NCBI GenBank assembly: GCA_026388345.1
Contig: JAPLJY010000324.1
Span: 1-27,769 of the forward strand
Direction of reading: 5' to 3'
Source of the DNA: Deltaproteobacteria bacterium
Lineage (GTDB): Bacteria > Desulfobacterota > Syntrophia > Syntrophales > UBA5619
DNA length: 27,769 nucleotides
Within the stretch, counting starts at the first letter, position 1. Each line of letters begins with the position of its first letter. This document shows positions 15,979-27,769 of the stretch, piece by piece. The position numbers were made by a program, and so were the translations under genes. Under the pieces are notes generated by a model that was not told the origin of the DNA, ran no database searches, and saw nothing but the letters and a program-made list of their open reading frames with translations.

Positions 15979-16005
15979 ACTATACGAAATTCACAGCCCT
16001 GTCAA
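15979..16005 (-). promoter_or_regulatory. Candidate sigma-70 promoter for rpsT
   Basis: On the minus strand TTGACA (16000-16005) is followed after 15 bases by TATAGT (15979-15984). Both boxes are close to consensus, although the spacer is short. The -35 box overlaps the stop codon of the upstream cusA gene (16002-16004). rpsT begins about 40 bases downstream. Confidence 0.6.
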
Positions 16006-19000
16006 GCCGAAAGTGGTCCCTTCCCCGCCCCCCCTTCGCCGGCCGGCCGCCGGGGAAGCCCCCTCCCCCTCCAGATCCGGTAGATCGCCGGGTAGATGAC
16101 GAGTTCCAGGATCGTGGAGGTGATGACTCCCCCCACCATCGGCGCTGCGATCCGCTTCATCACATCGGCGCCGGCGCCATTGCTGAACATAATGGGGATG
16201 AGCCCCGCGAGAATCACGGAGACCGTCATGATTTTCGGCCGGATTCTTTTCACTGCGCCGTGCATGATGCTCTCCCGGAGGTCCGCCGTCGTCGTCATCC
16301 GCCCCTTTTTCACCCATTCGTCATAGGCCAGGTCGAGGTAGAGGAGCATGACGACGCCCGTCTCCGCGTCGAGACCGGCCAGCGCGATGATCCCCACCCA
16401 GACGGCGATGCTCAGGTTGTAGCCGAGCAGGTAGAGGAACCAGAAGGAGCCGACCAGCGAAAAGGGAACGGCCAAGAGCACGATCGCCGTTTTGGTCGCC
16501 GACTTCGTGTTGAAATAGATCAGGATAATGATGATCAGCAGGGTCAGCGGGATGACGAGCTTGAGTTTCTCGTGCGTCCGGACGAGGTTTTCGTACTCGC
16601 CGCTCCAGGTGAGCCGGTACCCCTCGGGGATCTTCAGGTCCGCCACCCGGGCCTTGGCCTCGTTGACATAGCCGCCGAAATCCCTCCCCGAGAAGTCCAC
16701 GTAGACATAGGCAGCGAGTTGCCCTTCCTCGCTCTTGATCGCCGTCGGCCCCTTGACGATCCGGACGTCAACCAGTTCCCCGAGTGGGACCTGAAGGATG
16801 TTCCGCGAAGTATTCATCCCCGCCGGCCCTGGAGCAATCACCGCCTGCGCCCCCGGCATCATGACCGGTACCAGGATCCGCCTGATCGATTCCGGGTCGT
16901 TCCGCAGCTCTCGCGGATAGCGGACATTGACCGGATAGCGTCCCCGCCCCTCCACGGTTGTCGTGACGTTCTCGCCGCCGATCGCCGAGGAGACCATCTC
17001 CTGGACATCGTCCACGGTAAGGCCGTACCGGGCGATCCGGTCCCGCCGAATGACAACGTCGAGGAAGTAGCCGGTCGTCACCCGCTCTGCATAGACGCTC
17101 CTCGTCCCCGGGACGGTCTTGAGCCGCTCCTCGAGCGCGAGGCCGATCTTTTCGATCTCGCCGATGTCCGGACCCATCACCTTGATCCCGACCGGCGTCC
17201 GGATCCCCGTCGAAAGCATATCGATCCGCGCCTTGATCGGCATCGTGAAGGAGTTCGACACCCCGGGGATGGAAAGGGCGTCGTTGAGCTCGTTCTTGAG
17301 CTTTTCCACGGTCATTCCCGGCCGCCATTGTTCCTCGGGCTTCAGGTTGATGACCGTCTCGAACATCTCCAAGGGCGCCGGATCGGTCGCTGTCTCGGCC
17401 CGTCCTGCCTTGCCGAAGACCTGGGCCACCTCGGGCACCTGCTTGATGATCTTGTCCTGGAGGGTGAGCAGCTTTCCGACCTCCGCGACGGAGGCCGCCG
17501 GGACCGTCACCGGCATATAGAAAAGGGTCCCCTCGTAAAGGGGGGGCATGAACTCCGTCCCCAGCTTCATGAACGGGTAGACCGTCGCCGCCAGGATGAT
17601 CAGCGCCAGGACGATCACGCTCTTCCTGAACCGCAGCGCAATCCGGGCCACGGGCTCGTAAAGACGGTGCAGGATCCAACTGACGGGATTCTTCTCCTCC
17701 GGACGGATCTTCCCCCGGATGAAGAGGGTCATCAAAACCGGCGTCAGCGTCACCGCCAGAAACGAGGAGAAGAGCATCGCAAAGGTCTTGGTATAGGCGA
17801 GCGGCTTGAAGAGCCGGCCCGCCTGGGCCTCAAGGGTGAAGACCGGCAGGAACCCGACGGTGATGACCAGCAGCGAGAAGAACAACGACGGGCCGACCTC
17901 CTTGGCCGCGTCGACGATCACATCCGCCCGGCTGCCGGGCCGGCCGGACGCCTCCCAGTCCTCGAGCTTTTTGTGGGCGTTTTCCACCATGATGATCGAG
18001 GCGTCGACCATCGCCCCGATCGCAATCGCGATCCCGCTTAAACTCATGATGTTCGAGGTCACCCCGAGGTAGAACATGCAGATAAACGAGATGAGAATCG
18101 CGATCGGGAGCGTCAGGATCACAACCAGCGCCGAGGGCAGATGGAACAGAAAGACGATGCAGACGACGCTCACAGCGATGGAGAGCTTGAGGATCTCCTC
18201 CTTGAGGGTGTCGATCGCCCGGCCGATCAGCTCGGAGCGGTCATAGGTGACGACCACCTTCACTCCTTTGGGGAGGCTCGGTTCGATGTCCCTTTTGAGG
18301 CGCTCCTTGACCCGCTCGATGACGGAAAGGACGTTCTCCCCGAAGCGGACGACGACGATCCCGGCCACCACCTCCCCCCGGCCGTCGAGGTCCGCGAGTC
18401 CCCGCCGGATCACGGGGCCCAACTGGATGCGGGCGACGTCCATCAGATAGACCGGCGTCCCATTCCCGCTCGCCCCCACGGCGATCTCCTCCAGGTCCCG
18501 GAGGCTCTTGATGTAGCCGCGGCCGCGGACCATGTATTCGACACCGGAGAGCTCGACCACCCTCCCCTCCACGTCGCGGTTGCTCTTGCGGACCGCCTCC
18601 ATGACCTTCGAAATCGGGATGTTGAGGGCGGAGAGCCGGACCGGGTCGACGGTGATCTGGTACTGCTTGACGAAACCCCCGAGGCTGGCGACCTGGGAGA
18701 CGCCGGGAACGCTCTCGATCGCGAGCTTGAGGTTGTAATCCTGGAGCGACCGGAGCTGGGCCAGGTCATACTTTCCCGTCTCATCGACGAGCGCGTAGGA
18801 GAATCCCCAGCCGAGGCTCGTGGCATCGGGCCCCAGCGTCGGGTTGACCTCGGCGGGGAGCTTGTTCCTCACCGCCTGGAGGTATTCGAGGATCCGGCTC
18901 CTGGCCCAGTAGATGTCCGTACCCTCGTCGAAGATCACATAGATGAACGAGCTTCCCAGGAACGAAAAACCGCGGACCGCCTGCACCTTCGGCGCCGCGA

Positions 19001-19220
19001 GCAGCGTCGAGGTGATCGGATAGGTCACCTGATCCTCGATGAGGTCGGGGCTTCGCCCCGGCCACTCCGTGTAGATGATCACCTGGGTGTCGCTCAAATC
19101 GGGCAGCGCGTCGAGGGGGGTGTGCTTCAGCGCCCAGATACCCCAGGCGAGCGACCCCAGGATGAGCAGAAAGATGAGGAAGCGGTTTTTGGCGCTGAAT
19201 TCGATTACTTTGGCGATCAT
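16002..19220 (-). CDS. cusA: Copper/silver efflux RND pump CusA
   Basis: CusA is the inner-membrane proton-driven pump of a tripartite Cu(I)/Ag(I) exporter. It has 1072 residues, full length for HME-RND proteins. The N-terminus PLDALPDLSDTQVIIYTEWPG and GKAGRAETATDPAPLEMFET are CusA signatures. The proton-relay residues appear in AMVDASIIMVENAH (Asp near residue 405), DAETGVVMLLYL and KRIRPKIMTV. Met residues in LFYMPVTVP and ARIDMLSTGI match two metal-path methionines of E. coli CusA. A third was not located. It is the last gene of the operon, separated from cusB by 176 bases of repeats. Confidence 0.93.
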   Translation of the reverse strand: MIAKVIEFSAKNRFLIFLLILGSLAWGIWALKHTPLDALPDLSDTQVIIYTEWPGRSPDLIEDQVTYPITSTLLAAPKVQAVRGFSFLGSSFIYVIFDEGTDIYWARSRILEYLQAVRNKLPAEVNPTLGPDATSLGWGFSYALVDETGKYDLAQLRSLQDYNLKLAIESVPGVSQVASLGGFVKQYQITVDPVRLSALNIPISKVMEAVRKSNRDVEGRVVELSGVEYMVRGRGYIKSLRDLEEIAVGASGNGTPVYLMDVARIQLGPVIRRGLADLDGRGEVVAGIVVVRFGENVLSVIERVKERLKRDIEPSLPKGVKVVVTYDRSELIGRAIDTLKEEILKLSIAVSVVCIVFLFHLPSALVVILTLPIAILISFICMFYLGVTSNIMSLSGIAIAIGAMVDASIIMVENAHKKLEDWEASGRPGSRADVIVDAAKEVGPSLFFSLLVITVGFLPVFTLEAQAGRLFKPLAYTKTFAMLFSSFLAVTLTPVLMTLFIRGKIRPEEKNPVSWILHRLYEPVARIALRFRKSVIVLALIILAATVYPFMKLGTEFMPPLYEGTLFYMPVTVPAASVAEVGKLLTLQDKIIKQVPEVAQVFGKAGRAETATDPAPLEMFETVINLKPEEQWRPGMTVEKLKNELNDALSIPGVSNSFTMPIKARIDMLSTGIRTPVGIKVMGPDIGEIEKIGLALEERLKTVPGTRSVYAERVTTGYFLDVVIRRDRIARYGLTVDDVQEMVSSAIGGENVTTTVEGRGRYPVNVRYPRELRNDPESIRRILVPVMMPGAQAVIAPGPAGMNTSRNILQVPLGELVDVRIVKGPTAIKSEEGQLAAYVYVDFSGRDFGGYVNEAKARVADLKIPEGYRLTWSGEYENLVRTHEKLKLVIPLTLLIIIILIYFNTKSATKTAIVLLAVPFSLVGSFWFLYLLGYNLSIAVWVGIIALAGLDAETGVVMLLYLDLAYDEWVKKGRMTTTADLRESIMHGAVKRIRPKIMTVSVILAGLIPIMFSNGAGADVMKRIAAPMVGGVITSTILELVIYPAIYRIWRGRGLPRRPAGEGGAGKGPLSA

Positions 19221-19235
19221 ATTCTAGAACCTCTG

Positions 19236-19262
19236 AAAAATAGGGACCCTGTCCCTATTTTT
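19236..19262. repeat. Inverted repeat in cusB-cusA gap, possible attenuator
   Basis: A perfect 12-bp stem has arms AAAAATAGGGAC and GTCCCTATTTTT around the loop CCT. On the minus strand the stem is followed by A/T-rich bases, so it could act as a terminator on either strand. It lies 15 bases before the cusA start, so it might reduce cusA expression or mark an RNA-processing site. A sister repeat lies at 19380-19402 and a half-size stem (GTCCCT / AGGGAC) at about 19268-19286. Confidence 0.7.
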
Positions 19263-19379
19263 ATCACTGTCCCTATCGACAAGGGACGATGGCCTTCGCG
19301 AGGGACGCATTGGAGATTTTTCGCTTCGAAAAATGTCCAGCGGCCCGGCGAAGCGCCTCGGCCCGCATGGAAAGCCCTG

Positions 19380-19402
19380 AAATAGGGACTCAATCCCTAT
19401 TT
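19380..19402. repeat. Inverted repeat overlapping the cusB stop codon
   Basis: Arms AAATAGGGA (19380-19388) and TCCCTATTT (19394-19402) form a perfect 9-bp stem with a 5-base loop. On the minus strand the cusB stop TAG (19399-19397) is part of the arm. It belongs to the same AAATAGGGA family as 19236-19262. Confidence 0.7.
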
Positions 19403-20680
19403 TAACGGCCTCACCCCCCGGAGCTGCGCCTCGGAATCGACGAGGAAGGCGGCGGATGCGGCAACCTTCTCCCCTGCCTTGAGCCCCCGGAGGACCTCCC
19501 GGAACCCTTCGGTCCGCGCCCCGAGCGCCACCTCCCGCGGCTCGAAGTTGCCGTCTTTCTTATCGACGTAGACGATCTGCCGGACGCCCGTGTCGATCAC
19601 GGCATCGTCGGGAACGGTCAATCTTCTCCCGAGATCGATTTTGATCTCCACCTCGGTGTACATCTGGGGTTTGATCTTCTCCCCGGGGTTGGGAATCGTG
19701 AATCGCGCCTTGGCCGTCCGCGTCTCCCCCGCCAGGGAGGGGTTGATGAAATCGATCCGGGCGCGGTATTCCTGGCCCGGCGAACCGGCCAGGGCAATAA
19801 TGGCCTCCTGGCCCGGACGGATCAGGGGCAGATCCGCCTCATAGATGTCGGCGACGACCCAGAGCGACTCGAGGTCGGCAACGTCGAAGAGCTTCTCCCC
19901 CGGCATCACCTTCATTCCCTGCACGGCCATCTTCTGGACGACATGGCCGTCGACGGGGCTGTAGAGCGTGAGCGTCCGGACGGGCTCGCCCGTCTCTCCG
20001 ATCTTCCGGATCTGCTCGTCCGAGATGTCCCAGAGTTTGAGCCTCTCTCGCGCGGCGGCGGCCAGCGCGGCCGCATCCCGGGCCACCATCTTGTCGGTGA
20101 CGCTTGCGGTGTCCGGTTTCGGCTCGCCGCTCCATTTGAGGAGCTGGAGGTATTCCCGCTGCGTCGCCAGCAGCTCCGGGCTGTAAAGATCGGCCAGCGG
20201 CTCCCCCTTCTTCACGGGGCGGCCGGTGTAATCCACATAGAGCCTCTCGATCCACCCCTCGAACTTGGCATTGATCGTCCGGAAACGGCGCTCGTCGTAC
20301 TCCACCCGCCCGACGGTCCGGATCGTCCGGCTCAGCGGACGGACGGCCACGGCAACGCTCTTCATCCCGATGAGCGGCTGCCGGTCGGCGGGAATCTCCA
20401 CGGTCGGGGCCTCCGGGGCCGGTGTTCCCGCGGCAGGCGTTCCGGAGGTCTGCGTTGCGCCTGGCTGAGGTTGTGCTGCCGCCGCCGGCGCCGCAACGGG
20501 CGGCCCCCCGCCATGTCCCTGGTGTCCGGTTTCGGGCTTGGCGCCGGTGGCCGTGAGCCCCTGAACCTGCCGGCGGATCTTGTCCGACACCCCCCGGGGG
20601 TTCAGGACAAACCCGATCAAGAGCAGGATCAAAATGCCGGCTGCAACCACAACGCCGATGATCATTCTTCGATTCTTCAT
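19397..20680 (-). CDS. cusB: Periplasmic adaptor CusB of Cu/Ag efflux system
   Basis: CusB is the membrane fusion protein that joins CusA to the outer-membrane channel. The 427-residue product has an N-terminal membrane anchor (about residues 7-26), then a Pro/Ala-rich linker with a GHQGHGG motif (His53, His56). Barrel-sandwich and helical-hairpin segments follow (TVGRVEYDERRFRTINAKFEGWIERLYV region, then VVQKMAVQGMKVMPGEKLFDVADL). The E. coli N-terminal Met cluster that takes Cu(I) from CusF is not visible; the His pair may stand in for it. GGGGAAAAG precedes ATG. The stop codon lies in an inverted repeat. cusC ends 13 bases upstream. Confidence 0.92.
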   Translation of the reverse strand: MKNRRMIIGVVVAAGILILLLIGFVLNPRGVSDKIRRQVQGLTATGAKPETGHQGHGGGPPVAAPAAAAQPQPGATQTSGTPAAGTPAPEAPTVEIPADRQPLIGMKSVAVAVRPLSRTIRTVGRVEYDERRFRTINAKFEGWIERLYVDYTGRPVKKGEPLADLYSPELLATQREYLQLLKWSGEPKPDTASVTDKMVARDAAALAAAARERLKLWDISDEQIRKIGETGEPVRTLTLYSPVDGHVVQKMAVQGMKVMPGEKLFDVADLESLWVVADIYEADLPLIRPGQEAIIALAGSPGQEYRARIDFINPSLAGETRTAKARFTIPNPGEKIKPQMYTEVEIKIDLGRRLTVPDDAVIDTGVRQIVYVDKKDGNFEPREVALGARTEGFREVLRGLKAGEKVAASAAFLVDSEAQLRGVRPLK

Positions 20681-20693
20681 GGTCTTTTCCCCG

Positions 20694-21974
20694 TCATTTC
20701 GCCGGCAGGGCCGGTTCGGTCAGCGCCTCGATCCTCGCCACGGCCTTCGCCCGTTCCGTGAGCTGTCCCTGGTAGAGAAGTTCGTAATCCAGGTAGGACT
20801 TCAGACGGGTGATGACCGTCAGGACGTCGCTTCTTCCCGTCCCGTAGCCCGTAAGGGCCAGGTCGAAATCCTGCGCCGCCTTGGGAATCAAGGCGTTGCG
20901 GTACAACTCCATCAGGTTTTCCGCCGCCCGGAACATCGCCAGGTTGTCCCGGATGCCCGATGCGGCCATGAGCCTGGCGGCCTCCAGTTCGTACTTCGCC
21001 CCTTCGAGTGCGGCCTGGGCCTCCCGGACGGCCGGCTCCTGCTTCGTCTTGTAGAAGATGGGGATGTTGACGGCGGTCGAAACCCCCCACATGTTTGTGT
21101 ATTCGCCGGGACGCTGCGCCAGGCTCCCCGATAAGGTGAAATCGGGATAGTATTCCCTCTTAAGCATGTTGACCCTCGCCTCGGCGGCGGCAATCATCCT
21201 TCCCCGGTTCTTGATCTCCGGCGACTGGGCATAGGCCTTCCGGATCAGTTCCGCCTCGTCCGGAACGTACAAATCCAGTGGAACCGGCTCCGGCCTGGCA
21301 AACGAAGCGGGCGTCTCACGACCGACGGTGAGGCTGAGCATCGCCTCCAGCGACTGGATCTTCTGCTTGAGCATCGCCTCCCGCTCCCGGAGCATGTATT
21401 TCTCCGTCTGCGCCATGACGGCGTCCGCCTGCGAGGCCGTCCCCGAGGCGTAGCGCGAGAGCGCCGCCTCCTCGATCCTCGCGAAGAGGGCGGTCCTCTC
21501 CGCGACAAGATCCAGGTTCCGATAGGTCAGCGCAAGATCGTAATAGAGCTCCTTGATCCGTGCGGCGACCCGCAACCGGAGGGCCTCGTAGGCCTCCCGG
21601 ACGCCCTCGGCGTCGGCTGCCGCCATCGCCTGCTTCAGGTCGCGTTTTCCGAAAAAGGGCAGGGTCTGCGAGACGGAGTACATCCACTGGGCATCCGGCG
21701 AATCGCCGTAGGTGTACCGGGTCAGCCCATCGTTCTGGTAACCGACGCTGACCATGGGATCGGGAAGCCCCCACGCCTGGGTGATCCGAAAATCCGCCGC
21801 CGCAATCCGGGATTCGGCGACCCGAAGCTCCCGGTTGTTCGCCAGCGCCTCCCGGATCAGAGGTTCAAGCGCCTGCGTCTCCGCCAGCGCTACCCCCGGG
21901 AAAAGCCACAGGAGAGTTGCCAGAAGGATCCCGGCGACCCATCCGCCGACCTGCAATCTTTTTGACGCCATCAT
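20694..21974 (-). CDS. cusC: TolC-family outer-membrane channel CusC
   Basis: The product is the outer-membrane exit duct of the efflux complex. It has 426 residues. A signal peptide ends near residue 31 (VALA-ETQ), with no lipobox Cys, so this CusC is not a lipoprotein of the E. coli type. The rest is long helices with the two-fold repeat of outer-membrane efflux proteins (OEP). The ATG at 21974 is chosen because the signal peptide begins there; the frame stays open for 122 codons upstream, but those residues are unrelated. It lies between the FixH-like gene and cusB. Confidence 0.9.
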   Translation of the reverse strand: MMASKRLQVGGWVAGILLATLLWLFPGVALAETQALEPLIREALANNRELRVAESRIAAADFRITQAWGLPDPMVSVGYQNDGLTRYTYGDSPDAQWMYSVSQTLPFFGKRDLKQAMAAADAEGVREAYEALRLRVAARIKELYYDLALTYRNLDLVAERTALFARIEEAALSRYASGTASQADAVMAQTEKYMLREREAMLKQKIQSLEAMLSLTVGRETPASFARPEPVPLDLYVPDEAELIRKAYAQSPEIKNRGRMIAAAEARVNMLKREYYPDFTLSGSLAQRPGEYTNMWGVSTAVNIPIFYKTKQEPAVREAQAALEGAKYELEAARLMAASGIRDNLAMFRAAENLMELYRNALIPKAAQDFDLALTGYGTGRSDVLTVITRLKSYLDYELLYQGQLTERAKAVARIEALTEPALPAK

Positions 21975-22140
21975 AAAACCAATCCCTCTTTTCTTGGGAT
22001 GGGCGCCCGCCCCAAGCCCTTGGGCCTGAAACGGGTATCCGAAACAACCCTGCGCGCTTTTAAAAAAGGTGTCCCTCTTCCAATCACGCTGCATGAAACC
22101 GATTTTCATCGATTTTCGATCACTCTGCCCGCTCTTTCGA

Positions 22141-22533
22141 CTATCTCGCATCCACGGTCCATTTGGCCGTGGCCGTCTTGCCGCCCTGGGTGATCCGGAC
22201 GGACATGTTCCAGGAACCGCCCATGGAAAGGTCGATCTTGGCCTTGTACTTGCCGCCGTCCAATTTGGCGTCGGCCTTGTTTTCCATCGCCGGCATCCCC
22301 GGCATTGCCGGCATCGACGCGGTGACGAGGACCTTAGCATCCGTCACGGCTTTGCCGGTCTTGTCTTTGATCACGATCTCCACATTGTTGGACCCGACCA
22401 CGGGGGTATCCTTGTCCATCTTGATTTCCACCGAATAATCCCCCGCCTTTTTCTGCACCGTGTTTTCCTTGGCCAACACCGTCCCGGCCACCAACACCAC
22501 AAGCAACACCACCAACCAAGACCATCTTTTCAT
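22141..22533 (-). CDS. FixH/YtkA-like periplasmic protein with Met motif
   Basis: The 130-residue product has a signal peptide ending near residue 21 (TVLA-KE) and an immunoglobulin-like YtkA/FixH domain. Mets at residues 74, 77, 80 and 83 form an MxxMxxMxxM pattern, like that of Cu(I)-binding periplasmic proteins. It is the first gene of the cus operon and probably handles copper in the periplasm before the pump; that is inferred. GGAGGAAA precedes ATG. A promoter candidate lies at 22588-22616. The usual small chaperone CusF was not found nearby, and this protein may take its place. Confidence 0.8.
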   Translation of the reverse strand: MKRWSWLVVLLVVLVAGTVLAKENTVQKKAGDYSVEIKMDKDTPVVGSNNVEIVIKDKTGKAVTDAKVLVTASMPAMPGMPAMENKADAKLDGGKYKAKIDLSMGGSWNMSVRITQGGKTATAKWTVDAR

Positions 22534-22587
22534 TTATATTTCCTCCAGTTATTTTTTGATCGCCTTTCAACTCATTAACTTTTATGT

Positions 22588-22616
22588 AAGCTAAGACGTA
22601 CACATGAGAATGTCAA
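22588..22616 (-). promoter_or_regulatory. Candidate promoter of the cus operon
   Basis: Minus-strand TTGACA (22611-22616) is followed after 17 bases by TAGCTT (22588-22593). The -35 is perfect and the -10 keeps the three most conserved positions. No CueR-type dyad or CusR box could be recognised near it. Confidence 0.45.
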
Positions 22617-22714
22617 CTCCAACAACCGTCCAGTCGCTCCGCCGGCTGATCTGCCAGGTCCCGGATGATATCAAGACGGTGAAGATCATCCGGATCGGGA
22701 CGCACCCTGAATAA
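22604..22714 (+). other. Small open frame, possible gene remnant, in the fixH-parB gap
   Basis: The 318-base gap between the divergent FixH-like gene and parB holds two promoter candidates and this 36-codon frame. Its end, VKIIRIGTHPE, loosely recalls the KIIRIGTR strand of lysine 2,3-aminomutase-like radical SAM proteins. It has no ribosome binding site and overlaps the cus promoter, so it is at best a remnant. Nothing else is visible in the gap. Confidence 0.15.
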
Positions 22715-22745
22715 CCGCCATGGAGACACGGCGCCTTTATTATTC

Positions 22746-22773
22746 TTGACTTCTGAAATTTTCCATGTATTTT
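22746..22773 (+). promoter_or_regulatory. Candidate promoter of the parB-like gene
   Basis: TTGACT (22746-22751) is followed after 16 bases by TATTTT (22768-22773). The gene starts about 80 bases downstream, leaving a 5' leader of about 70 bases. The boxes are close to sigma-70 consensus. Confidence 0.5.
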
Positions 22774-22851
22774 TCAGACCATAGCACAGTGTAGTTTACG
22801 GTTGGTTCCATCATGCGTTAACCTTTTCTCACCCCCGGAAAGGAGGACGTT

Positions 22852-23649
22852 ATGGCAACAACGCAAACTTTTGTGCCCAATCAACTCTATGACATGCCTC
22901 TGGCCGATCTCCAGCCGGATCCCAACCAGCCCCGGAAATACCTGGATCCCGTCGCCCTCGACGAACTCACCGCTTCCGTCAAGGAGCACAGCGTGATCGC
23001 ACCGATCACCTTTCGGGTCGAGAACGGCATCTGCTACATCGTCGCCGGCGAGCGGCGCTGCATCGCGGCCCGTAAGGCCGGCCTCGCCACGATCCCCGCC
23101 GTCTACACCGACAACCCGCGTTACGAGGAGATCTCCATCACCGAAAACACGATCCGCGCGGACCTCACCGCCGTCGAGGAAGCCGAGGCCCTCGACCGCC
23201 TCCAGAAGAGCAAATCCTACAAGCAGGAGGACCTGGCCCGGATCATGGGCAAATCGGTGACCACGATCTCCCAGACCCTCTCCCTCAACCGGCTCCCCCA
23301 GGCGATCCGGGACGAATGCCGCAAGGACCCCGTCGTTCCCAAGCGGGTCCTCATTGAGATCGCCGTGAAGAAGCAGGAACGGAGCATGCTCAAGGCCTAC
23401 GGGGCCTACAAGGCGAGCGTGAACCCCGGGAAGAAGGAGAAAACGGGCAGCGACGCGACGCTGGTCCAGGGCGCCCTGAAAGCGGTGCAAGCCGCGCAGA
23501 AGAAGATTGAAGCCCTGAACGCCGGGGATCTGAACCAGGAAGAGAAGGAGGCACTGACACCGGCCCTGAATGGCATCAAGGGGGCCGTCGAAACCCTGCT
23601 GGCGGCGTTTGAGGCACCGGCAACGAAGAAAAAGAAAACCCTGGCGTGA
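22852..23649 (+). CDS. Orphan ParB/Spo0J-family DNA-binding protein
   Basis: The 265-residue product has an N-terminal ParB/Srx domain with LQPDPNQPRK and GERRC (residues 66-70), the segment that binds CTP in this family, then ENTIRADLTAVEEAEAL and a helix-turn-helix at about residues 122-148 (QEDLARIMGKSVTTISQTLSLNRL). The C-terminal part is a Lys/Ala-rich helix with a basic end. No parA lies beside it, so it is not part of a visible partition operon. AAAGGAGG precedes ATG. It may be a regulator or a relic of a mobile element. An 18-bp palindrome lies about 170 bases downstream. Confidence 0.85.
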   Translation: MATTQTFVPNQLYDMPLADLQPDPNQPRKYLDPVALDELTASVKEHSVIAPITFRVENGICYIVAGERRCIAARKAGLATIPAVYTDNPRYEEISITENTIRADLTAVEEAEALDRLQKSKSYKQEDLARIMGKSVTTISQTLSLNRLPQAIRDECRKDPVVPKRVLIEIAVKKQERSMLKAYGAYKASVNPGKKEKTGSDATLVQGALKAVQAAQKKIEALNAGDLNQEEKEALTPALNGIKGAVETLLAAFEAPATKKKKTLA

Positions 23650-23679
23650 ATCGGGCCTAACTCCTTTCCCGTAAGGAAT

Positions 23680-23713
23680 GAAGATTCTCCGGGTCTTACT
23701 GTGGAGAATCTTC
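23680..23713 (+). terminator. Hairpin after parB-like gene, possible terminator
   Basis: A perfect 11-bp stem (GAAGATTCTCC / GGAGAATCTTC) with a 12-base loop lies 30 bases after the gene. The following bases are AT-rich (GATATTTCG) but there is no full T-run. The right arm also occurs in the REP-like pair near 9153-9166, so it may be a repeat as well as a terminator. Confidence 0.5.
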
Positions 23714-23815
23714 GATATTTCGTCAATAATATCGAGAAATGGTATTGAAAACACGATTTGGAAAAAAACCAAGCGGCGAGCAGAAGAAACATAAATTGTA
23801 TCAGATAGTTAATTG

Positions 23816-23833
23816 ACTTCCACGCGTGGAAGT
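23816..23833. promoter_or_regulatory. 18-bp perfect palindrome, candidate protein-binding site
   Basis: ACTTCCACGCGTGGAAGT is its own reverse complement. The central TTCCACG/CGTGGAA resembles the layout of parS sites (TGTTTCACGTGAAACA in B. subtilis) but with a wider centre. It lies about 170 bases after the orphan ParB-like gene. A role as that protein's site is inference. Confidence 0.4.
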
Positions 23834-24365
23834 TGTTTCATCATCTCTGTTGAAGTCCGGTGGTCCGGCCCTTATTCCAACGCAACCACCGGATCGAGAA
23901 ATGGGGCCGCGACATCAAGATGATCCTGGAGCGGGAATACTTTGCGCTGAAGTTTTTCCCGGAAGGCTGTTTTGGAAACCCGTAGCCTTGTAAAAAAGGG
24001 GACGGCGGCGGGGGTCGTCATCGGCTGCGGTGGGATGGTTTCATCAAAATGGGCTGTTGAAATTTCCGGAGTGGCATATTGAATACGGGCTGAAAGATGC
24101 ACAGCATGAACCGCATATTTTCGATTCATGCAGCTCACGCACAACTTCCTGTAACGTGCAATGTGGGATTTTTGCACAACATGCGTCCTTTCAAATGGTT
24201 ATCAATAAGATGCTTCCTTGACTTCTCAACTCATTAAGGCCACAATGAGACGCGTTTGATAAGGCATTGTCAATCGGTTAACAGCCAATTTGAACCCTCT
24301 TTAGAAGGGTGATGCCATGAAGAGATTATTGAAACCCTGCTTCTGAAAAGAGAGCGGAGGTTTTT

Positions 24366-24438: not shown

Positions 24439-25776
24439 ATGAAAAAATTATCTGAAGCCATTTGCATATTGCTTCTATTAGCCTTTCTGGCTGGCTGTGC
24501 AGGATCACTTCAGAACGCCGCATATGAGGGTGATCTTCAAACTATAACTAAACTGATTAACGATGGGGCCAATATCAACGAGAACAGTGCGGCTGGTCCC
24601 GCTCTTCATTATGCATGCTACACTTGCCAACTAGAGGCAGTAAAACTCCTTCTTGGAAGAGGTGCTAATGTAAATATTATCGGTTTTAATAATTGGACAG
24701 CTATGCACGCCGCAGCCTGGGGGGGCTGCAACGATGTGATAGGGCTTCTTATTGACAAGGGTGCTGGCATTGATCCCGTTGATGATCGAGGGTACTCACC
24801 TCTTGCATGGGCGGCCGATCGCGGCAATGCGTCCGTAAAATTTTTGATTGAAAAGGGCGCGGACCCGGATATTGCCATAAATGGCCTAATAAGACAAAAA
24901 AATAACGCTGCCGCTAGGATTGTCGAACAGGCGGCAATGGGTGTTCAAAAAGGAAAGACACAAATTGCAACAAATAAGGAGAGCCGTTCTCCGGCAGTCA
25001 AATCCGATGTTGATGACCTCCCTGCGATCAAAACAAAGCCAAATAAAAACTCCTATGCGATCGTCATCGGCATTGAACAATACCGTCAGAAATTGCCCAA
25101 GGCTGATTTTGCCGTAAGCGATGCAAAGCTTGTAAGCGAATACCTTTCCAGGGTAATGGGCTTTCCTGAAGAAAATATCGTCACTTTGACAAACGAGCAT
25201 GCAACAAAGAGCGACTTTGAAAAATACTTTGAAAAATGGCTTTCTAATAATGCAGAAAAGGACAGTACGGTCTTCATCTACTATTCCGGCCACGGCGCAC
25301 CGAATCCAAAGACAGGTGATGCCTATCTGGTCCCCTATGACGGTGATCCATCTTTTATTGATCAGACGGGATATTCACTGAAGAGGCTTTATGAATCTTT
25401 AAACAAACTTCAGACAAGAGAGATTATCGTTGTACTTGACTCTTGCTTCTCCGGTGCAGGGGGAAGAAGTGTTCTTGCGAAAGGTGCACGACCTCTTGTT
25501 ATGAATCTACAGAACAACATGGCTTTGTCAAAGAACATGACCGTCCTTTCCGCCTCATCGGGGGAGCAGATCAGCTCAACCTATGACGAAAAGGGCCACG
25601 GACTTTTTACCTATTTTATGCTCAAAGGGATCAAGAATGAAGATGTGGTTCAACCGGATGGTTCTATCGCAATCAGCGACCTATTCAACTACCTGAAACC
25701 TCAGGTGGAGCGCATTGCCCGGAAGCAATACAACAACGAACAGACGCCGCAGTTGATTGGGGCGAAAAAGAATTAA
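24439..25776 (+). CDS. Caspase-like (peptidase C14) lipoprotein with ankyrin repeats
   Basis: The 445-residue product starts with a lipoprotein signal (LLLLAFLAGC, Cys20). About four ankyrin repeats follow (residues 25-155, with ALHYACYTCQLEAVKLLLGRGANVN and AMHAAAWGG as clear examples). After a linker, the caspase domain begins near residue 205 (SYAIVIGIEQY). The catalytic dyad is visible: His285 in YYSGHGA and Cys336 in VVLDSCFSG. AAGGA precedes ATG. It should sit in the outer or inner membrane facing the periplasm. The caspase part closely matches that of the next gene. The target is unknown; it may bind a partner by its ankyrin repeats. Confidence 0.85.
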   Translation: MKKLSEAICILLLLAFLAGCAGSLQNAAYEGDLQTITKLINDGANINENSAAGPALHYACYTCQLEAVKLLLGRGANVNIIGFNNWTAMHAAAWGGCNDVIGLLIDKGAGIDPVDDRGYSPLAWAADRGNASVKFLIEKGADPDIAINGLIRQKNNAAARIVEQAAMGVQKGKTQIATNKESRSPAVKSDVDDLPAIKTKPNKNSYAIVIGIEQYRQKLPKADFAVSDAKLVSEYLSRVMGFPEENIVTLTNEHATKSDFEKYFEKWLSNNAEKDSTVFIYYSGHGAPNPKTGDAYLVPYDGDPSFIDQTGYSLKRLYESLNKLQTREIIVVLDSCFSGAGGRSVLAKGARPLVMNLQNNMALSKNMTVLSASSGEQISSTYDEKGHGLFTYFMLKGIKNEDVVQPDGSIAISDLFNYLKPQVERIARKQYNNEQTPQLIGAKKN

Positions 25777-25785
25777 GGACCGTTT

Positions 25786-25962
25786 ATAAAAAAAATATTT
25801 CCGGTCATTTATATTTTCATCTTTTTTTTCTTACTTACTAGTTGCAGCGGCACTTTATTATACACGCCAGACCAAAAAATTGTTGCAACAATGTCGTTAA
25901 ATGAAGCCATAAAGAAGGCAGAGACACTTTTTTGCACAAACAGTGCCACAGGGAAAGCTTAA
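25786..25962 (+). pseudogene. Detached lipoprotein signal and N-terminus of the second caspase-like gene
   Basis: Six bases after AAGGA (25775-25779) the frame reads ATA, then KKIFPVIYIFIFFFLLTSC, a clear lipoprotein signal with lipobox LTSC, and continues as SLNEAIKKAETLF. The codon at the start position is ATA, not ATG, GTG or TTG, and none of those lies between it and the preceding in-frame stop (25774-25776). At the T6 run (25928-25933) the frame ends in TAA at 25960-25962, while the next frame continues as AQTVPQGKLKVYADL. Removing one T would join them. This looks like two lesions in one N-terminus. Confidence 0.65.
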
Positions 25963-27490
25963 GGTGTATGCAGACCTCGTGGAAGTCTCCGGCCTTAGAC
26001 GAACCACGGGCAATTGTTATTTTGATGCTATGTCAATAAATGTCACAGATTATGGTTCACTCGCTGGGCAATATCGAATTGGCGATCGCTACAACGTTGA
26101 TATAGGATCAGAGAATACATGTAAATACATCTTGTTTAGTAGTTATGAGAATGCGATTGCATTTGCCAATGCCATATATTTGCTTAAAAACACACCCCTT
26201 CAGGTCAAAAAATCTTTTTTTCAAGCTCTTAAGCAAAGAGATAATATGATAACCATTGCCCAACCTGCAATAAAACCGGCAGTGCCGGTTAGCGTTCAAC
26301 CGACTCAAAAATCGGCGCCAAGGGCATGGCTCGGAGTTTCCATACAGGATCTGACGCCTGAAATTGCCCAAAATATGCCAAGTCTAGAGGGTTTGGGTAA
26401 AATTCAGGGAGTCCTGGTTGCGGATGTGGTAAAGGATGGTCCTGCCGGGCAGGCGGGTATTCTGCCGGGAGATATAATCATACAGTTCAACAGTACGTAC
26501 ATAAACAAGACAAGCGAACTAACAGCCCTGGTTTCAGCCGCCAAAGATGGTAAGGCCGTACTAATGGTTCTGCGGGATGGTAAAAGATTCTTTGTTGCCG
26601 CAAAACTCGCAATCATGCCGGTCGAGATTGCAAAAAAAATTGAAATTGAACAGGCAACACCGGCATCTCCCCATGAAATAGCTTCGCTACCATCCTTGGG
26701 ATCTTCTACTATCAAGTCCGACGTTGATGAACTACCTGCAATCAAGGTCAAACCAAACAAAAACGCCTATGCAATAGTAATTGGTATTGAAACCTATCGC
26801 CAGAAGCTTCCGAAGGCTGATTTTGCAACTGCTGATGCAAAGACAATGGCAGAATATCTCACAAAAGTCATGGGCTATCCTGAAGAGAATGTCGTCACAC
26901 TCGCGAATGATCGTGCTGCATTGGGAGACTTTGTAAAATATTTTGAGAAGTGGCTGCCGAACAATGTTGAAAAAGACAGTACCGTTTTCATCTACTATTC
27001 CGGTCATGGTGCACCAAATATAAAGAATGGCGACGCCTATCTGGTACCTTATGATGGTGATCCGACCTTTATTACCGAGACGGGATACCCAATAGCACGT
27101 CTTTACGAATCGCTGGGTAAGCTGAAGGCAAAAGAAATCACCGTCGTTCTTGATTCCTGTTTTTCCGGTGGGGGTAGCAGGTCGGTTCTTGCAAAGGGCG
27201 CCAGACCACTCGTCATGAATTTGCAGGATAACATGGTTCTCTCTAAGAATATGACTGTCCTTTCCGCCTCATCGGGTGACCAGATCAGTTCGACCTATGA
27301 CGAGAAGAGTCACGGGTTGTTCACCTACTTCCTGCTCAAAGGCATTAAAAACGAAGATGTTATAAAGCAGGATGGTTCCATCAAGATGGACGACCTGTTT
27401 GGCTACATCAAACCCCAGGTGGAGCACATTGCGCGGAAGCAATTCAACAACGAGCAGACGCCGCAATTGATTGGGGCGAAGAAGAATTAG
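25943..27490 (+). CDS. PDZ-caspase-like (peptidase C14) protein, N-terminus disrupted
   Basis: From the first usable GTG the frame codes for 515 residues. Residues 1-90 form an unassigned region. A PDZ domain follows at about 123-215 (RAWLGVSIQDLTPE, then AGQAGILPGDIIIQFN), as in HtrA-type proteins. The caspase domain begins near 275, with His355 in YYSGHGA and Cys406 in VVLDSCFSG. The His-Cys spacing of 51 equals that of the neighbour. The linker KSDVDELPAIK and the C-terminus NNEQTPQLIGAKKN are shared with it. GTG at 25943 has no convincing ribosome binding site; the native start was probably at 25786 in another frame. Without the signal the product would stay in the cytoplasm. Confidence 0.75.
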   Translation: MPQGKLKVYADLVEVSGLRRTTGNCYFDAMSINVTDYGSLAGQYRIGDRYNVDIGSENTCKYILFSSYENAIAFANAIYLLKNTPLQVKKSFFQALKQRDNMITIAQPAIKPAVPVSVQPTQKSAPRAWLGVSIQDLTPEIAQNMPSLEGLGKIQGVLVADVVKDGPAGQAGILPGDIIIQFNSTYINKTSELTALVSAAKDGKAVLMVLRDGKRFFVAAKLAIMPVEIAKKIEIEQATPASPHEIASLPSLGSSTIKSDVDELPAIKVKPNKNAYAIVIGIETYRQKLPKADFATADAKTMAEYLTKVMGYPEENVVTLANDRAALGDFVKYFEKWLPNNVEKDSTVFIYYSGHGAPNIKNGDAYLVPYDGDPTFITETGYPIARLYESLGKLKAKEITVVLDSCFSGGGSRSVLAKGARPLVMNLQDNMVLSKNMTVLSASSGDQISSTYDEKSHGLFTYFLLKGIKNEDVIKQDGSIKMDDLFGYIKPQVEHIARKQFNNEQTPQLIGAKKN

Positions 27491-27514
27491 GAATTGTTGA
27501 AAAGGAGATTGATC

Positions 27515-27769
27515 ATGAAAAAGAAAATAGCTTCCTTTTCCTTATTTATTTTACTAATAGCCTTAACTGGCTGTGCCTACCAAAGCGTGACATTCAAATC
27601 AATTCCAGAAAAGGCTGATATCCATATTGATGGCATACCCCAGGGAAAAGCGCCAGTCAAGGTTTCTTTATCGACGGATCGATTTGCCGGTTGTCCAGAT
27701 TGCAGACACACGATAACAGCAAAATTGGATGGATATCAGGATGAAGTGCTGGTCATGCAAAGTCCGAGC
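27515..27769 (+). CDS. PEGA-domain-like lipoprotein, 3' end outside window
   Basis: Eighty-five codons are visible. The signal ends in the lipobox ALTGC (Cys20). After it, IPEKADIHIDGIPQGKAPVKVSLSTDR and HTITAKLDGYQDE follow the PEGA pattern (a surface-layer-associated beta domain). AAAGGAG lies seven bases before ATG. It starts 24 bases after the second caspase-like gene and is probably in the same operon. Its Cys pair (CPDC, in the GCPDC segment) is unusual for the domain. The C-terminal part is cut by the window end, so further domains cannot be judged. Confidence 0.75.
   Translation, partial: MKKKIASFSLFILLIALTGCAYQSVTFKSIPEKADIHIDGIPQGKAPVKVSLSTDRFAGCPDCRHTITAKLDGYQDEVLVMQSPS

Follow-up and report, generated by a model that had tools for sequence, protein, structure and literature searches.

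A row of caspase-like genes with differing front modules in a Syntrophales contig, and a recurrent DUF4384 gene beside its relatives

A gene row encoding caspase-like proteins

The DNA studied here (further referred to as the window) is a stretch of 27,769 nucleotides (nt), contig JAPLJY010000324.1 of the Deltaproteobacteria bacterium assembly GCA_026388345.1 (order Syntrophales). Its last part, 24439–27769, carries a row of three plus-strand genes, of which at least the first two encode a caspase core behind different N-terminal modules. According to the reading preferred here, to which we give a probability of about one half, such genes form an envelope surveillance set, where exchangeable front modules would choose where and when one caspase core, probably Arg/Lys-specific, acts. 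Proteins, loci and genomes used for comparison are denoted by P, L and G numbers, respectively.

Gene 1 (24439–25776, 445 amino acids) encodes a predicted lipoprotein (LAGC, Cys20). An ankyrin-repeat module at approximately residues 23–145 (24505–24873; Pfam Ank_2 3.1e-20, Ank 8.2e-20) is followed by a linker and the caspase core, together 258 amino acids (25000–25773; His codon 25291–25293, Cys codon 25444–25446). Among the matches listed, the nearest full-length relatives of the protein are 87–90% identical. Gene 2 is readable at 25943–27490 (515 amino acids in the open reading frame (ORF), 508 in the version of the gene caller, P0001). It encodes an N-terminal module, further called the N-module (25943–26284), a PDZ domain (26306–26608; PDZ_2 1.3e-12), and again a linker with a caspase core of 258 amino acids (26714–27487; His codon 27005–27007, Cys codon 27158–27160). 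The N-module has no Pfam match, has a mean predicted local distance difference test score (pLDDT) of 61 in the structure model, and is homologous to modules of P0002–P0009, P0024 and P0069. Among the N-terminal parts compared, the PDZ domain is closest to that of P0011, an HtrA-PDZ-caspase (45.5%). The arrangement given in the preliminary description of this DNA, that is, tandem genes with ankyrin repeats in one and an unassigned domain plus PDZ in the other, is thus borne out by Pfam.

The start of the N-module is missing from the gene 2 frame owing to a frame break. Three-frame translation places the module start and the remains of a lipoprotein signal (LTSC) at 25786–25962, in another frame than the main ORF. 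No ATG, GTG or TTG precedes this lipobox in the assembly, and a signal-like start lies in frame with the module in 7 of 10 other N-module proteins. The break may be either decay or an assembly error.

Gene 3 (27515–27769) is cut by the window end and encodes a predicted lipoprotein (LTGC) with a PEGA module scoring 20.9 bits (cut-off 20.8). It had been described as a neighbour of a different kind. However, over its 85 visible residues the gene 3 protein shares 98.8% identity with the start of P0117, a complete PEGA-caspase whose source may be this assembly or a closely related one. Over 78 residues the identity to P0098, another PEGA-caspase with the same core, is 70.5%. Hence gene 3 very probably encodes the beginning of a third caspase, truncated where the contig ends, which would make three caspases in a row. 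Given these matches, a separate PEGA lipoprotein is less likely. A search for short relatives of gene 3 (candidates limited to 0.55–1.75 times the length of the cut piece) returned gene 3 itself and one 67-residue protein among three candidates.

From the linker motif KSDVD[DE]LP to the end, genes 1 and 2 encode 258 residues each, with 80% amino acid and 74% nucleotide identity, and the spacing of the catalytic His and Cys is 51 residues in each, as had been noted before. The divergence of the two cores is 0.14 at nonsynonymous sites (dN) and 2.34 at synonymous sites (dS). Saturation of the synonymous sites rules out a recent duplication, and since the C-terminus is conserved throughout the family, its likeness in genes 1 and 2 is no sign of recent copying.

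By profile, dyad and fold the core is a member of peptidase family C14. The Pfam caspase domain scores 65.8 and 59.2 bits in the window cores (curated cut-off 21.4), both of which contain the dyad motifs SGHG and DSCFSG. The preliminary description had allowed that the caspase domains could prove unrelated in fold; a caspase fold was found in the structure model of gene 2, the match covering residues 269–515, through to the C-terminus. The His-Cys dyad is kept in all 126 complete cores of the family (120 by pattern, 6 by eye).

Two acidic residues of the core, Asp41 and Asp147, are invariant in 36 of 36 aligned cores. Asp41 aligns to the DA of metacaspase-1 and Asp147 lies within the DSC motif; by motif they correspond to Asp95 and Asp211 of TbMC2, reported as pocket residues in the excerpted text of PMC6426788. 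The specificity of the core would probably be Arg/Lys. A loop directly after Cys406 (residues 407–421) has pLDDT below 50 in the model, and its Arg413, Lys418 and Arg421 are nearly invariant.

Relatives of the core, their front modules and the DUF4384 gene

Protein searches with the two window proteins yielded at least 2750 and at least 4066 relatives at E 1e-3; about 8000 candidates with most words in common were scored in each search, and the best 120 were listed. A scan of genome contigs found 526 stretches encoding a relative, and the best 80 of them gave a set of 78 loci. Genome matches at model positions 1–149 correspond to ankyrin repeats alone and were not counted. The loci belong mainly to Deltaproteobacteria (including Syntrophaceae and Smithellaceae) and Nitrospirae/Nitrospirota, with some Nitrospinota and single cases in Elusimicrobia, Nitrosomonadales and Geobacter. 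Applied to the 78 loci and the window, the core profile identified 136 ORFs in 79 sources, some of them pieces. The co-occurrence of homologues, proposed earlier as a check, was found: 32 of the 79 sources with a core match contain at least two core ORFs, and there are 41 adjacent same-strand pairs.

Same-strand runs with gaps below 300 nt comprise 66 of one gene, 21 of two, 6 of three, one of four and one of six. Both modules could be labelled in 35 of the 41 adjacent pairs, those with too short an N-terminus being left out, and the labels differ in 25 of the 35. Eight of the ten like-labelled pairs are ankyrin-ankyrin. In two Nitrospirae contigs (L050, L063), rows of five or six caspase genes mix three core subfamilies (scores near 470, 270 and 140); they carry different modules, in partly the same order.

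Modules identified by Pfam ahead of the core include S41 with PDZ (L005, L017, L035), Thioredoxin_2/DSBA (L020), DUF2846 (L012), Laminin_G_3 (L034), CARDB (L050), Trypsin_2 with PDZ (P0011) and PEGA (P0098). A module of TPR with PDZ was assigned from precomputed Pfam annotation and our own profiles. In NCBIfam, the L005 S41 module matches the C-terminal processing peptidase (311.6 bits, cut-off 218.6), and the L020 module matches DsbC below the cut-off. Such a DsbC-like thioredoxin domain (CPYC) stands ahead of the core, with a DUF4384 gene directly after, in two Syntrophaceae assemblies (L020:9398-10774, L021:1560-2957). The N-terminal part had no Pfam match in 21 of the 30 sequences scanned. 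When 321 N-terminal parts were linked by BLAST, 27 clusters formed, the largest of which (259 parts) mixes ankyrin, PDZ, TPR and protease types. Labels of BamE-, LptE- and YajG-like modules, given by eye to some of these parts, were dropped since there was no Pfam match. Long frames of about 740–800 amino acids in the genomes were likewise dropped as candidate S41 fusions: the S41 profile found none in L086–L107. The set of differing N-terminal modules on one caspase core, suggested from the window genes, is thus found across the relatives.

Where the front module is an enzyme, its catalytic motifs are kept: in 4 of 4 S41 modules, in the CxxC of 2 of 2 thioredoxin modules, and as His, Asp and Ser in 4 of 4 full-length HtrA cases, so that HtrA modules as dead proteases are not supported. 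In two HtrA-PDZ-caspases (P0018, P0019) the residue pair before the catalytic Ser is changed while His, Asp and Ser remain; here the HtrA part is perhaps a weakened serine protease serving as a binding module.

To assess the exchange of modules, 150 selected cores bearing 33 module labels were placed in a quick maximum-likelihood tree. Most of the 153 ankyrin-labelled proteins (11 were kept), the copies of the window proteins themselves (P0001, P0121), cores of the weaker subfamilies and pieces shorter than 230 amino acids were left out. Labels change at least 68 times on this tree. The 20 labels with at least two members change 55 times in 137 rows, compared with 19 changes if each label formed one clade and 72–79 in 100 shuffles. 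Hence modules are exchanged often but not freely. Per label, there are 33 changes for 58 rows of ankyrin, 10 for 13 of M29 (a lipoprotein module without a Pfam name) and 8 for 10 of the N-module. One plain exchange involves gene 2 itself: P0002 lacks the PDZ domain, yet the N-modules of the two are 89% identical.

The recurrent non-caspase neighbour is a secreted protein of about 270 residues with a DUF4384 domain (E 1.3e-20). Its cluster occurs in 33 loci, or 37 with weaker relatives, and the next neighbour cluster in 11. All 44 non-caspase DUF4384-type ORFs share the strand of the nearest caspase, and of the 77 runs with an A-type core that are followed by 700 nt or more of sequence, 29 end directly in the DUF4384 gene. 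The proteins are well conserved (59–79% to the first row among 20). If the window row has such a gene, it lies beyond the contig end.

Further, the core was found in 40 of 155 genomes of the order (28 of 92 good ones), in up to 7 places per genome, and the DUF4384 partner (E 1e-30) in 23, of which 22 also have the core (Fisher p 8e-15, kinship ignored). A core lies at most 250 nt upstream of 16 of the 28 partner places, a count that used 23 of 100 core places, picked by eye from contigs that also have the partner. These genomes partly overlap the contigs of the 78 loci and therefore are no independent sample. The breadth of front modules and the recurrent DUF4384 gene go beyond what the preliminary description contained.

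The same observations bear on a simpler reading, plain expansion of paralogues, in which the proteins would be independent envelope proteases of common ancestry, the rows leftovers of duplication, and a joint task absent. It is favoured by the single-gene runs (66 of 95, some at contig ends), by the partial co-inheritance of module and core, seen in the correlation of their identities within the N-module group and in fewer label changes than in shuffles, and by core copy numbers of 1–7 per genome without a fixed set. Against it stand the usual difference of modules between adjacent neighbours, the recurrence of one partner gene at row ends on the same strand, and the conservation of the core while the modules change; we regard plain expansion as unlikely.

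Several observations, the prevalence of single-gene runs among them, weigh against the envelope surveillance set. The DUF4384 gene is not directly downstream of 48 of the 77 runs, and it directly follows none of the 16 such runs at L061–L078, mostly Nitrospira-like. Ankyrin repeats are prevalent (56 of 119 labelled modules in the loci) and alone say little of an envelope target. The profiles for S41, HtrA, the N-module and PEGA matched nothing in the 22 loci L086–L107, which makes these modules uncommon in that set. Weak nodes of the tree raise the exchange count, and within the N-module group module identity and core identity are correlated (Spearman 0.62, 55 pairs). The two pocket Asp residues were paired by motif and not by superposition. 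Finally, 30 of 122 N-termini have no lipobox by pattern, nor does gene 2 as assembled.

Export signals and genomic setting

All three window genes had been said to encode, at least formerly, lipoprotein signals. For genes 1 and 3 such a signal is predicted by reading, and by pattern a lipobox-like signal is present in 92 of the 122 related ORFs whose N-terminus is long and whose 5' end is closed; the gene 2 signal is out of frame as assembled. Most family members are thus predicted to be lipid-anchored in the cell envelope. Asp is absent from position +2 in 95 lipoboxes, which permits sorting to the outer membrane if the E. coli sorting rule holds.

Relatives of the fused HtrA, S41 and DsbC-like enzymes act in periplasmic upkeep. 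This weighs against surface-displayed or released proteases that would act outside the cell in feeding or competition, a reading for which the permitted outer-membrane sorting speaks and which we consider highly improbable. A precedent for it is provided by clostripains and gingipains of the caspase clan, which can act on surface proteins or outside the cell (excerpted text of PMC3482391).

The row differs in composition from the rest of the window: the G+C content of genes 1, 2 and 3 is 0.455, 0.442 and 0.413, respectively, compared with 0.605 for 1–23700. The nearest genome, G001, matches the window at 93% over 21354–24150, and no further match was found within its next 1500 nt; it has no core match, only PDZ matches. 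A strong A-type core is absent from all 11 genomes of its genus, two of which carry weaker types. The row therefore lies in DNA that is variable between close relatives, and its composition fits a later arrival. The genome G019 of the same family has A-type cores, and among 394 genomes of the phylum that are at least 90% complete the core was found in 18 at E 1e-60. Carriage by a mobile element was considered and set aside: 169 plasmid records match, all below 60% identity, as does one phage record, weakly, and no aimed search for integrases was made.

Defence genes often lie in low-G+C DNA that a near relative lacks, as the row does, and the row could be viewed as a cell-death or anti-phage/anti-predator system, in which the modules sense an attack on the envelope and the core kills the cell, as do animal initiator caspases and bacterial caspase effectors. 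In PADLOC, the window cores match the caspase model over positions 2–179 of its 453 (E 1.2e-22 and 7.2e-21), and other models are matched by the ankyrin region of gene 1 and the trypsin region of P0011; among the caspase models of NCBIfam, the EACC1-associated one, a type belonging to conflict systems, is nearest. However, the cores score 88 and 91 bits, under the cut-off of 140 of that model, the DUF4384 partner has no PADLOC match, and the phage records gave one weak match. No defence genes were noticed among the 25 most recurrent neighbour clusters, which were not scanned with PADLOC. The export signals in most members and the fusions to periplasmic upkeep enzymes also weigh against this reading, and we hold it to be rather unlikely.

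No tRNA and no Rfam match were found in the window. Window positions 24078–24151 (about 74 bp) have another copy elsewhere in G001 (C40, 84%), and synteny with G001 stops at their end; they form a dispersed repeat bordering the variable segment. At 23816–23833, approximately 170 bp downstream of a ParB-like gene (22852–23649), lies an 18-bp perfect palindrome, ACTTCCACGCGTGGAAGT. It occurs once in the window (0.02 expected), its inner 14 bases are also present at the matching place in the nearest genome (L083), and it is perhaps a candidate binding site of the ParB-like protein. Upstream, on the minus strand, there is an RND-type heavy-metal/drug efflux set (16002–22530), in which Pfam identifies genes of an AcrB-like protein (16002–19220), a HlyD/CusB-like protein (19397–20680), an outer-membrane efflux protein (20694–22340) and a YtkA/FixH-like protein (22141–22533).

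A possible envelope surveillance set and known caspase systems

In the envelope surveillance set as we envisage it, the modules, some binding proteins, peptides or the envelope and others being HtrA, S41 or DsbC-like enzymes, would place the core at envelope targets or damage states. The core would then cut after Arg or Lys, both in partner proteins and in the flexible loop that follows its own catalytic Cys, and the DUF4384 protein may be a common partner, acting as a scaffold, regulator or substrate. New members would arise by exchange of modules in front of the linker. The output would be regulated proteolysis in the envelope, with swappable inputs and one kind of output.

More tentatively, and with clear doubt, the family can be compared to an envelope counterpart of initiator caspases. 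The core would be a plug-in protease tail repeatedly joined to envelope sensors and quality-control enzymes (HtrA, S41, DsbC-like, PEGA, ankyrin, PDZ), members of a row would act via the common DUF4384 partner, and inputs would be gained by module exchange at the conserved linker.

The role of bacterial caspase homologues is an old question, mostly framed as one of cell death. A large family with an intact dyad, export signals in most members, one core and many inputs would point to caspase-based regulated proteolysis in the envelope, and its inputs include fused modules related to the best-known periplasmic proteases and to a disulfide isomerase. The caspase row with its DUF4384 gene provides a concrete operon for studying function.

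Prokaryotic caspase homologues are a known kind, and the present combination of core and modules is little described. The metacaspases and orthocaspases of family C14 have the same fold and dyad as the present family. By title or the start of the abstract, no paper describing this set was found in a literature collection that largely excludes subscription journals. In the accessible text of the survey PMC3501461, 112 domain architectures are reported among 671 prokaryotic caspase homologues, with an N-terminal helix, possibly a signal peptide, in 46 sequences; the words ankyrin and PDZ are absent from its main text. Compared with that survey, the present family has one strongly conserved core behind many modules, is arranged in rows, mostly carries a lipobox, and has DUF4384 in a separate gene.

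The best NCBIfam caspase model for the cores is NF047832 (EACC1-associated caspases), whose members belong to NTP-dependent conflict systems (excerpted text of PMC7159879). The present cores score 85–91 bits against it (87.9 and 90.6 in the window), below its cut-off of 140, and the members described here are mostly exported. HtrA/DegP and S41 processing proteases are carried by some members as N-terminal modules with catalytic motifs kept; in contrast to those proteases, a caspase core is fused behind.

DUF4384 is among the domains of cyanobacterial orthocaspases, according to the excerpted text of PMC7475262. The nearest published arrangement found is the chain of the alphaproteobacterial pseudo-orthocaspases, as presented in the excerpted text of PMC6426788, which combines a trypsin-like domain, a caspase domain and DUF4384, the same three parts as found here. 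Those proteins have a broken dyad (QC) and carry DUF4384 within the one chain, whereas in the present family the dyad is intact and DUF4384 is encoded by a separate downstream gene.

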